Source: Macrocystis pyrifera (Eukaryota > Sar > Phaeophyceae > Laminariales > Laminariaceae). From it: a stretch of 64,000 nucleotides of DNA. The stretch is taken from assembly GCA_031763025.1 (NCBI GenBank), contig JASSKH010000007.1, positions 16,206,080-16,270,079 on the forward strand, written 5' to 3'. Shown one piece after another: positions 1,389 to 4,702 of this stretch; position 1 is the first letter of the stretch; every line of letters starts with the position of its first letter. The notes beneath the pieces were generated by a model. That model saw nothing but the letters and a program-made list of their open reading frames with translations, did no database searches and had not been told where the DNA came from. The position numbers and the translations under genes are program-made.

Positions 1389-3050
1389 TATGTTTTTATG
1401 TACATCATGGGTCCTATTATCTATGGAGCCCCGTAATAGGAGCCATGCGTCATGTTTTTGTTTATTATTGATATGTTGCCGACAGCCATCATACGATGTT
1501 GTACGCCACATGTTTAGCTGTTGTTTTTGTGCCATTATTGAATATTTGATACGCGCTGCACAGAGTCCTCCGCACAGGTACCAAACCCCATCCGCAGCAC
1601 ACTCCGCAGCACAGTCCAGTGTATATTCTTGCAGCACAGTCCGCTGGCAGCCGGAGCAACTGTATACACATTGCCAGTGCTTTGTTTGTGAATCAGGCCC
1701 ATGGTAGTCAACCTAAATATACAGAAAACGGGATTTCGCGCCCTCACTATCGCCTTTCCTTGGTCTAAGTTCTAATTTCTAGGTTGCAACTGCATGCCAT
1801 CAATATGGTACAAGTACTAGGGTATACTAACATGTGGAAGTTGTTATTTTTAAACGTATTGTAAACACGGCGATTTACCTCTCGCAACTGGATGAACTGA
1901 CAACCCCTCCTTCACAGGTGGCCACTTGGGTACGTTGCGGGATGTTGTGGCGAAACCACAACCTTCGCACGTTGCGGCAACAGGAAAAACGTATACCGCA
2001 ACGCTTGCGTAACGCACCAAATGCACTTCGAATGTGAGACACCCTGTCGTGAAGTTTGCATAACGTGTAACGTTGTCGTGAGGTTCAATTAGGTTTGTGG
2101 ATGTTTTTGCAACGCTTGTCTGAGTTTTTTTGTCTCCAACATGTGTGACACATTTTGCAATTAATTGTATGCCGTATGTTGCAATCTACTGTATATTGAC
2201 GAAATATTACATGGAATGTCTGGAACTTGTGGAGGGGTAGTGAAGATTAGTTGGCATGTTTGAGAAGAAGGAATGGGGAAGGGGGCATGGAGTTGACAAT
2301 GGGTGCAGTTAAACTGCGAATTGCCGTCGACCAGGTATCTGCAATAATGTTCGCATCGTACAAGTTTGAAGAGGTGAGTTTGTGTCGATCGCATTCATTC
2401 ACCAAAATATTTGCAGTTATATTTTTTGCATTTTTTCGTTCATTCATTGCACAACCGACGCGGAATTCATGAAAAAAATATGAAAATAGTACAAAACGTT
2501 TTCCTTCCCCGTATGTGGTATGTGCCGAAGATTCATATTGTGTTTTGACTAATTTTAACGTACGTTTGGGGTGGTTTTGGCGTACAGAGCATATGTTTGC
2601 ATATGTTGTCGGTTTTGTGCTGTACATAACAGCGAGTGCGACCAGAAAATGTATATTTACAGAAAAAAAACACAATGTGAACCATACAACAAGTCGTAAA
2701 TTGGTGCTGTTTTGGGCGCATGCATTGCACCATATTGTATTCTCTAGTTTTATTCTTACTTTTCTTCGTCTACATACAAGTTTTTCCCGATTTCTTCAAA
2801 TCTTGTCATTATTTCGCGTGCCAGTTTTTCCCCGGATTTCATGTTTTTGCTTTGTTGCTGTCGTTTTTCATTCTGTGGTTTGTTTTTCGGTTCGATATCG
2901 ATTTTTGTTTAGCTACTGTGCTGTCAAATACTACAGCCGCAAAAAAAAACACAGCACTCTGACCTGGTACGTTTCCCAACCTGAGTACGTTATGACTCGT
3001 ACATTCGACAATCCGGAGACGTTATGAACGTTTGCGTTGGGCAATGATCG
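1389..3050. other. No gene recognised
   Basis: This stretch has no supported exon. It holds half of the TTACGGGGG MITE family near 1408-1436 (the 3' terminal repeat only), pyrimidine- and T-rich low complexity at 2740-2960, and short ORFs without recognisable motifs. Confidence 0.5.
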
Positions 3051-3078
3051 ACCTTGAGTTTGGTGGCTCGAATGACAA

Positions 3079-3127
3079 GGGGTTTAGGGTTGGGGTTAGG
3101 GTTAGGGCCTAACCCTAACCCGAACCC
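3079..3127. repeat. Head-to-head telomere-like palindrome
   Basis: About four degenerate TTAGGG-type units are followed at once by about three CCCTAA-type units, making an inverted junction centred near 3107 (TTAGGG next to CCTAACCC). This is the orientation expected from an end-to-end telomere fusion or from a copied telomere repair patch. It is short, so it may instead be the inverted end of a small element. It lies about 50 bp upstream of the tyrosine-recombinase element. Confidence 0.8.
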
Positions 3128-3177
3128 AGAGTACGCTCTCAAGGTGCTCCAGTGGCCACCTGTGTACCCTTTCCGGA

Positions 3178-3302
3178 CTAAAATGGAGATCCAATCCATG
3201 GATAAAAAATTGGCACAAATAATGGAACCATTGATTATATCGAAATGTCTCGGAATTTGTATCGAAGCGAGGTCACTTCTTCCTTTCGCTCCCGAAACCT
3301 CG
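3178..3302 (+). repeat. Split repeat A1
   Basis: This is the left copy of the ~123-bp direct repeat, nearly identical to 4359-4482. It abuts the recombinase region on its right. Confidence 0.85.
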
Positions 3303-3422
3303 TAAGCTTTACGAATCGGTCGCGAAAGTCTTGAGAGTATTGGAGGATGCCGCGAACCACGCGTTCAACACCGACCCTCTGCGGCGGGTTCGCGGCACGA
3401 GGTTGCGTGCGCGCTCGGCGGG

Positions 3423-4189
3423 TTGGTTTCCAAGGTGCCCCCCCGCCCGGGCTCTGACACATGGCCCCAAGAATTGGAGGCCGCGGAAAGGTTGGCCACC
3501 TCCGCTCGGGCCGGAACCTCACGTGCGTATCATGAGGCGGAAGCCACCAGGCTATTGGTGGGACACGTCGTCGACCTGCTCCGGTCCTCGGGTATCCTCC
3601 TGGAGTCGGAGCACTGTGTTCTGCTCAACGGAGCAGATGAGGAAGGTGAAGCCCTTCAGCCGGGAGTATGAGCGGAGGCTGCGGGCAGGATGGAACGTGC
3701 GGCCCCGTTCGAGGCGGTCGAAATCGCCGGTGGAGCGAACGCTGGGGGTGCCTCGGCTGGAGCGAGCTCGTCTGGGGCAGGAGGAGCTGGTCCGAGTGGG
3801 GCCCCGCAGGTTCATCCTACGGAACCAAGGAGCAAGGATGATCAGGAGCTGATCGGCCTCACTACATCCACGCACCCCCCAGCGGTACGAGTGTGTTTGC
3901 CGCTTTCTCGCGTATACGAGGTTGGGTTGGTCTGGCGCCGCTCACGATGCACTCTTTTCGAGTGGGAGGCTCGCTCAGCAAATCCTTCGCCGGGACGGCT
4001 GAGGACGAGATCATGGAAATTGGTGGCTGGAAGACAGGGTCATTTGCGAAGTACTGCATCGGGGCTACCTCGAGCGGACAAGTGCGGGGTAGCAAGAAGA
4101 AACGTGGCCAGAGCTACGCGGACGCTAGCGAGCTACCGTTGTCGCCGGAGTTCAGAAAGGACTTTGTGGCGTGTGTGGGTAAGGACTGA
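3423..4189 (+). pseudogene. Tyrosine recombinase remnant of the split-repeat element
   Basis: The best part, in the right third, has the HxxR box (MHSFRVGG) and, about 25 residues later, GGWKTGSFAKYCIG, where the Trp takes the usual His/Trp position and the Tyr is the expected nucleophile. Spacing and sequence match the C-terminal catalytic half of eukaryotic tyrosine recombinases of the DIRS/Crypton sort. To the left is an Ala/Glu-rich helical stretch and a Gly/Ala/Ser-rich linker. The enzyme would cut and rejoin element DNA via a 3'-phosphotyrosine. This is a broken fossil copy. Confidence 0.6.
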
Positions 4190-4307
4190 GTTCAGGAGAT
4201 AAAAGTTTGGGTGAGACAGTTCTGCCCCGGACCAGCGGTCAACAAAACAAAGGCAATCTGAAAGGAGGCGTAACGAAGTATGGGCGGGACCACGGGCCGG
4301 CGCAGAA

Positions 4308-4357
4308 GGCCTCATCCAATCCAATACTTACATTAAATGAGAGCCAGAATACTACAG
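4308..4357 (+). repeat. Split repeat B1
   Basis: This starts GGCCTCATCCAATCC and ends GAGCCAGAATACTACAG, directly against A2 at 4359. It matches B2 at 4640-4702, apart from a small extra stretch in B2. Confidence 0.75.
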
Positions 4358-4358
4358 T

Positions 4359-4482
4359 AAAATGGAGATCCAATCCATGGATTAAAATTTGGCCCAAATA
4401 ATGGAACCATTGATTATATCGAAATGTCTCGGAATTTGTATCGAAGCGAGGTCACTTCTTCCTTTCGCTCCCGAAACCTCGG
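4359..4482 (+). repeat. Split repeat A2
   Basis: This is the right copy of the A repeat, in the same orientation as 3178-3302. Its junction with B1 is the hallmark of the split arrangement. Confidence 0.85.
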
Positions 4483-4639
4483 GACTAGAGTTGGTCGCGC
4501 CACTTCTTGAGACCATCCCACCCACCCGGCAGTAGGGTTAGTATTCTTTGGCTTGTATACCCAGATCATTTACAGGTACTAACCTCGCGCAGAGTTTGTG
4601 ATTCGCCACTTTACTCAGCGCGGGGGGAAATTCCGGATG

Positions 4640-4702
4640 AGGCCTCATCCAATCCAATACTTACATGAAATGATCCACGGTAGAGAGCCAGAATACTACA
4701 GG
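4640..4702 (+). repeat. Split repeat B2 (right end of element)
   Basis: This is the second copy of the B repeat. It ends GAGCCAGAATACTACAG, after which similarity to B1 stops. About 157 bp of unrelated sequence separates it from A2. Confidence 0.7.

Follow-up and report, generated by a model that had tools for sequence, protein, structure and literature searches.

An internally deleted copy of a tyrosine-recombinase retrotransposon and its longer relatives in the genome of Macrocystis pyrifera

Introduction

The ALOG-type DIRS1 elements of Ectocarpus are described as being a little over 9 kb in length, with 159-bp terminal direct repeats, gag, a reverse transcriptase (RT)-RNase H and a zinc ribbon-ALOG-recombinase, and an inactive adenine methylase is attributed to the same class (Iyer and Aravind 2012, PMC3537659). 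PAT-like and Ngaro groups have both been reported in Ectocarpus; in the descriptions given there the two are told apart by the methylase, and an ALOG-like part is mentioned for neither (PMC4157794, PMC12477816). In the published model the RNA is reverse transcribed and circularised, after which the recombinase inserts the circle at a short site that matches it, and the target is not duplicated. Integration is described at a 3-bp match to the circle join, with no target duplication (PMC3266345).

The nearest published short form met was SIRE of Trypanosoma cruzi, which is described as a truncated form of VIPER corresponding to the A2-B2 region (PMC6681497). Among the listed titles and opening lines of abstracts on non-autonomous, solo, brown-alga or kelp DIRS elements, none described an RT-less subfamily that keeps its recombinase, and the search for literature on brown-alga or kelp DIRS found nothing beyond PMC12477816 and PMC3145265. 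Here we describe a short element of this kind from Macrocystis pyrifera. It lies in a stretch of 64,000 nt (the window), and an earlier note, made from the letters of the window, had described it as a miniature tyrosine-recombinase retroelement.

Layout of the element

The element occupies positions 3179-4701 of the window on the plus strand (1,523 nt) and follows the order A1-interior-B1-A2-B2. This order, read in the earlier note as A1-coding-B1-A2-B2, was borne out by the 124-nt direct repeats A1 (3179-3302) and A2 (4358-4481), which are 98% identical with 3 differences in 124 sites, and by the motif CTACAG, which terminates both B1 at 4357 and B2 at 4701. The junction of B1 and A2 that had been proposed at 4357-4359 was placed at 4357/4358, where it reads CTACAG/TAAAATGG. 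The proposed span of 3178..4702 did contain the element, with its true limits one base further in on each side, and the GAA that follows position 4701 was read as target-derived flank.

A1 starts with TAAAATGG, and a weaker similarity to A2 goes on to approximately 3336. The interior is composed of 639 nt of the 5' region of the family (3303-3941), approximately 245 nt of the recombinase end and a short 3' part. The 5' remnant holds overlapping open frames; the frame from 3306 meets a stop at 3669-3671, and the recombinase part is entered out of frame. A deletion join at 3941/3942 is followed by a C-terminal recombinase fragment of about 82 residues and a stop (3942-4189). Alignment with other copies assigned 4190-4306 to a 3' untranslated part, which merges into the weaker outer B1, and 4307-4357 to the B1 core. 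A2 is followed by the A2-B2 spacer (4482-4639) and B2 (4640-4701). It had been stated that the interior keeps only recombinase-like sequence; HSFRVGG and GGWKTGSFAKYCIG are indeed present, but the recombinase C-terminus is confined to 3942-4186, and 3303-3941 belongs to the family 5' region. Nor are the split repeats intact, as had been thought: B1 lacks 11 nt that are found in B2 and in four other aligned copies, and at the end of the spacer B2 has lost 21 nt from its outer edge in comparison with four aligned copies (20 nt relative to L051).

The left flank (2954-3178, plus strand) lies outside the element and contains a dispersed repeat, with identities of 74-91% over longer matches elsewhere. 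Between two conserved blocks of this repeat, at 3087-3127, a telomere-like GGGTTAGGG / CCTAACCC palindrome was observed. TTAGGG repeats were found at three of ten contig ends. The EsV_1_7 motif, described as having proliferated in brown algae and otherwise known mostly from giant viruses (PMC12477816), was also searched for in the genome. All 150 scored matches to PF19114 (the best 150 of 1,585 candidates) were above the cut-off, and none of 14 control genomes gave a match, which makes a brown alga the likely host.

The same A and B ends border many other copies in the genome, far beyond chance. The 35-nt A start gave 100 genome matches and the 39-nt B1/A2 join gave 49, both at up to three mismatches, while the reversed-pattern control gave none in either case.

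Recombinase remnant

The recombinase C-terminus was aligned with Cre over HSFRVGG...GGWK...YY at an E-value of 0.00098, including H289, R292, W315 and Y324, which we take to be catalytic residues of Cre. Unrelated nanobody chains were returned by the same search at E 0.006-0.1, making the Cre match modest by score alone, and the alignment of the key residues would appear to matter more than the score. In the window, HSFR retains its H and R, and GGWK retains its W. At the place of Y324 the window has Cys, whereas Tyr was found in all 23 other loci matching there; among these, L032/L033 represent one copy, L045-L047 represent one duplicated fragment, and L020 has the Tyr in just one of two overlapping frames. 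The W has been lost from the recombinase of L025, L038 and L039.

When five protein queries were used, the window was matched by residues 18-99 of the 99-aa recombinase end alone, and the RT and RNase H queries found no match in the window copy. The missing N-terminal part is presumably where the first catalytic Arg would be expected. Since this part is gone and Cys stands in the place of Tyr, the window copy cannot make an active recombinase.

Deletion join

A search of the 537-Mb genome with the whole element returned 44 matched pieces (best 40 of 1,270 candidates), one of which was the window itself. Among these best candidates, 36 of the 43 remaining pieces break at element position 763-765, seven others lie on contigs C206, C214, C222 and C223, and none covers the whole element. 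The two halves of the window copy are 4.2-8.7 kb apart in L019-L023, L032, L034, L036 and L037; at the join 5,053 nt are absent relative to L019 and 6,647 nt relative to L020. A 121-nt probe laid over the join found no place besides the window that spans it (best 40 of 338 candidates), and a 40-nt join pattern with up to three mismatches matched a single place genome-wide, the window. Because the halves lie kilobases apart in longer copies and the join was found at no other place, there is strong support for an origin by internal deletion, with the window holding one such copy from a large family of tyrosine-recombinase retrotransposons. A deletion derivative is one of the two origins that the earlier note had considered.

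That note had made its reading depend on other copies sharing the A and B repeats, and such copies were found, together with longer relatives of the sort it had proposed to look for, including the RT-bearing L032, L034 and L037. The further copies with the same short interior that it also suggested looking for were found neither with the join probe nor with the 40-nt pattern. An amplified short family sharing the window join was hence rejected, as the pattern matches nowhere else.

The divergence of the window copy from its relatives was 3.8-7.0% for the 5' part against 20 other copies and 3.9-7.2% for the 3' part against 21, with copies that covered less than 85% dropped. Further short derivatives that begin with A and finish with B were observed as well, namely L025 (1.47 kb), L040 (1.6 kb), L038 (2.46 kb) and L026 (2.6 kb). 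L025 and L040 are independent derivatives. Since L025 and L045-L047 break at nearly the same point on the right, a shared event was considered for them; it was rejected, as L045-L047 are truncated at both ends within a unit repeated at approximately 17 kb. These truncated fragments lie at C222:3904183, 3921293 and 3938475, a spacing of ~17.1 kb, and probably belong to a larger duplicated unit.

Relatives with and without reverse transcriptase

Three relatives bear an RT: L032 (with L033) of 10.1 kb, L034 (with L035) of 10.4 kb and L037 of 9.3 kb. Matches to gag-like, RT, RNase H-like and recombinase regions follow one another in this order in all three, and their open frames are broken into pieces. 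The protein queries were drawn from L032, L034, L036 and L019, some of the matches thus being self-matches; the RT and RNase H regions of L032, L034 and L037 were recognised with queries from L034. A probe for the RT was matched 40 times, at 86-100% (the best of 161 candidates). The plan of the fuller relatives is A1 - 5' region - minisatellite - gag-like - RT - RNase H-like - recombinase - B1/A2 - spacer - B2, and the similarity of direct repeat A extends up to 158 nt in them. The minisatellite, which consists mostly of 87-88-nt units, was seen inside the element at L019:2427-4998, and RT-bearing copies have it too.

Among Pfam models, RVT_1 exceeded its cut-off in L034 (E 2.1e-9). The RNase H models gave E 0.00024 and 0.0028 in the relatives and RVT_3 gave 0.07, all below the cut-offs. 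In the recombinase, ALOG was matched at E 1.1e-5 in L019 (26 bits against a cut-off of 26.6) and at 2.8e-5 in L036, under the curated cut-off, and zinc-ribbon models were matched in L019 at E 0.0007-0.04, also under their cut-offs. A PDB search with the ALOG-like part gave chance-level matches only. No Pfam match to a methylase was obtained at E up to 0.1 among the ten proteins scanned.

These relatives resemble the ALOG-type DIRS1 elements of Ectocarpus as described in PMC3537659 in their length of 9.3-10.4 kb, in direct repeats of up to ~158 nt, in gene order and in overlapping 5' open frames, as well as in gag-like, RT and RNase H-like regions and in a recombinase with zinc-ribbon-like and ALOG-like parts (by E-value, under the cut-offs). 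The order A1...B1-A2-B2 is also that given for the PAT-like and Ngaro groups, and with these groups the relatives have a recombinase, an RT and an RNase H in common (PMC4157794, PMC12477816). The ALOG and zinc-ribbon scores below the Pfam cut-offs, and a methylase not detected in ten proteins, are points against the ALOG-type class. The 87-88-nt minisatellite and the RT-less subfamily described below are not mentioned in the account of the Ectocarpus class in PMC3537659, and, unlike the members of that class, the window copy is without all but the recombinase end. The window copy is very probably a single non-autonomous derivative, by internal deletion, of an ALOG-type DIRS1/PAT-like tyrosine-recombinase retrotransposon.

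In a second group of copies, L019-L023 and L051, the recombinase region is kept, and of the 274 residues in the RNase H-side query only 30 (244-273) are left. As far as its locus extends, L024 agrees with this group, and L028, observed without its 3' side, shows an RNase H-side remnant. The joins of L019 and L020 relative to L034 are identical. A 201-nt probe over this RT-loss join returned 51 pieces (best 40 of 195 candidates), from which 19 places span the join, 17 of them in full and two falling 7 and 19 nt short of the ends; another 21 pieces are one-sided, and in some cases two of them come from the same RT-bearing copy, one from each side. The other 11 pieces are short. Hence, at L019:5556-5756 and at least 18 other places RT and RNase H are lost by one common join while the recombinase region is kept, and the RT-less form therefore multiplied as such or within duplicated regions. 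Over 810 nt of the recombinase, a stop or gap was present in five of six RT-less copies and neither was present in one.

The window copy groups with copies that are without a 200-nt 5' insert. The loss of RT was seen in seven insert-lacking copies (L019-L024 and L028), yet a copy on contig C201 that, like the window, lacks the insert does have the RT segment, by listed positions only.

The other origin considered in the earlier note, a lineage in which the recombinase alone remained, would make the window a member of a minimal recombinase-only family, either Crypton-like or a compact lineage. The RT-less multi-copy subfamily with its 19 places lends something to this idea. However, the subfamily has its ends and interior in common with RT-bearing relatives, and the window copy has a private join and is without the first part of its recombinase and the Tyr. 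A compact recombinase-only lineage was therefore rejected for the window copy, and its membership of a minimal recombinase-only family is regarded as extremely improbable. The window copy also differs from a Crypton, whose basic plan is a recombinase without RT, in that RT-bearing relatives have the ends and interior of the window group. The idea of a recombinase-alone lineage fits the RT-less subfamily better than it fits the window copy.

Insertion ends and origin of the short form

Both outer ends were read in 13 copies, a set that does not include L032/L033, L034/L035, L037 and L029, whose ends are split over loci or diverged, or copies with a single end. In this set A1 is preceded by G in 11 copies, by C in the window and by A in L036. 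The triplet that follows B2 is GAA in five copies, TAA in five, and CAT, TAC and TAT in one each, so that the second base is A and the triplet conforms to NAH in all 13. A G before A1 and NAH after B2 would fit insertion at a short match to the circle join without target duplication; in the family of the window copy, CTACAG/TAAAATGG would then be the circle join, with G/NAH as its target. The left flank of the window copy ends in C instead of the usual G, which is a point against the reading of the element preferred above. An empty site was sought with the joined flanks of the window. The left flank matched the dispersed repeat and the right flank only itself, and nothing crossed the joined point with both flanks (best 40 of 285 candidates), so that the lack of an empty site among these also counts against that reading.

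Within the deletion reading, about 5 kb of interior would have been lost at a break where 1-2 nt are shared (by eye), by end joining or by template switching, and two sequences of events were weighed. In the first, the element was short before it was inserted, a deleted RNA or cDNA produced by a template switch having been circularised and inserted with the proteins of other copies. Any movement in the short form would have needed RT and recombinase from elsewhere. Both ends of the window copy, apart from the C on the left, resemble those of inserted copies, the four short A-to-B derivatives named above show that such forms exist, and 1-3 nt are shared by eye at the breaks of the window, L025 and L040. 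On the other hand, a second copy of the join was not found, and there is thus no sign of amplification in the short form. In addition, given the 3 differences between A1 and A2 over 124 sites, the insertion was not very recent. We put this sequence of events at a little under an even chance.

In the second, a longer copy was inserted and its interior was lost later in place, which would agree with a join unique to the window and with the further small deletions in its B1 and B2. Among the recombinase sequences sampled, private changes (74 silent, 195 replacing) look near neutral, as expected of copies decaying in place, against 26 silent and 35 replacing among the shared changes (Fisher p 0.03); the test is weak, with both subfamilies pooled and columns not independent. 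Nothing specific spoke against loss in place, which likewise falls just short of an even prospect in our estimation.

Deletions at the B1/A2 junction

In three relatives a deletion runs between the exact B1/A2 join and an internal G/NAH site. In L027 (6848/6849) interior sequence ending ...ATATATG, which continues with TAT in the parents, abuts A2 exactly. In L023 (join at 1381, minus strand) ...GGTAAG abuts A2 exactly; L019 continues there with GAC and L020 reads differently. In L048 (2034/2035) the CTACAG of B1 abuts TATTCTTGG of the spacer, where L051 has ...GTTAG/TATT. This pattern suggests that a recombinase acted in place at B1/A2. The same breaks share 1-4 nt (by eye), and short-homology repair may instead have been their origin. 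The breaks in the window, L025, L026, L038, L040 and L045-L047 do not touch the B1/A2 join. The pattern is taken from the breaks that were read.

Copies that end at B1, without A2-B2, were found in L036, L038, L040 and, as the plus-strand copy, in L044. The converse form, a solo A2-spacer-B2, is present in L044 at 2485-2852 on the minus strand, and its flanks match none of the seven element loci compared. L027 had also been a candidate for a solo unit and was rejected, its left flank being element interior. Further, in L070:1-2201 (C219:6011050-6013250) A2-spacer-B2 units of 363-365 nt are arrayed head to tail; four are full, one is of 337 nt and one is cut by the locus end. The units of L070 are 87-89% identical to the L019 unit, which places them in a related subfamily, and five of the six joins in the array read CTACAG/TAAAATG.

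The spacer pattern gave 154 genome matches, of which 100 were listed. Of the 100 A starts, 46 are preceded by B1, 49 are without B1 or a listed spacer, and five have a spacer and no listed join. The five include L022, where B1 carries an insertion, the L027 deletion and the true solo unit of L044; the other two, C204:4397177 and C211:18847641, are known by position alone. A listed A start was absent from 63 of the 100 listed spacer matches (154 in total), and the spacer therefore occurs also in diverged copies or related families.

Both unit forms, A-interior-B without A2-B2 and the solo A2-spacer-B2, can also be produced by ordinary recombination between A1 and A2 or between B1 and B2, and for that reason neither form proves that a recombinase acted. 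Stronger evidence for such action comes from the precise deletions.

Discussion

The window copy alone is of little weight, being a decayed derivative of a described class, and the junctions of its relatives could matter more. We propose tentatively, as an idea that is possible and yet rather less probable than its opposite, that B1/A2 is a live recombination site and not just a replication template. A recombinase acting in place or on the circle would trim exactly between CTACAG/TAA and an internal G/NAH, as in L023, L027 and L048, and would perhaps free the A2-spacer-B2 unit that stands alone in L044, is arrayed in the related subfamily of L070 and is missing from L036, L038, L040 and the plus-strand copy in L044. 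Alongside, the RT-less subfamily that keeps its recombinase would have spread with borrowed RT.

The window copy is like SIRE, as presented in PMC6681497, in being a short non-autonomous form of a recombinase retrotransposon with split direct repeats. It is unlike SIRE in keeping A1, part of the interior, B1, A2 and B2. Units comparable to SIRE occur elsewhere in the genome, in L044 and, from a related subfamily, in L070. The origin and movement of SIRE are left open in the account given in PMC6681497, and the question becomes testable in a genome where precise deletions occur side by side with a unit standing alone and an array of such units.
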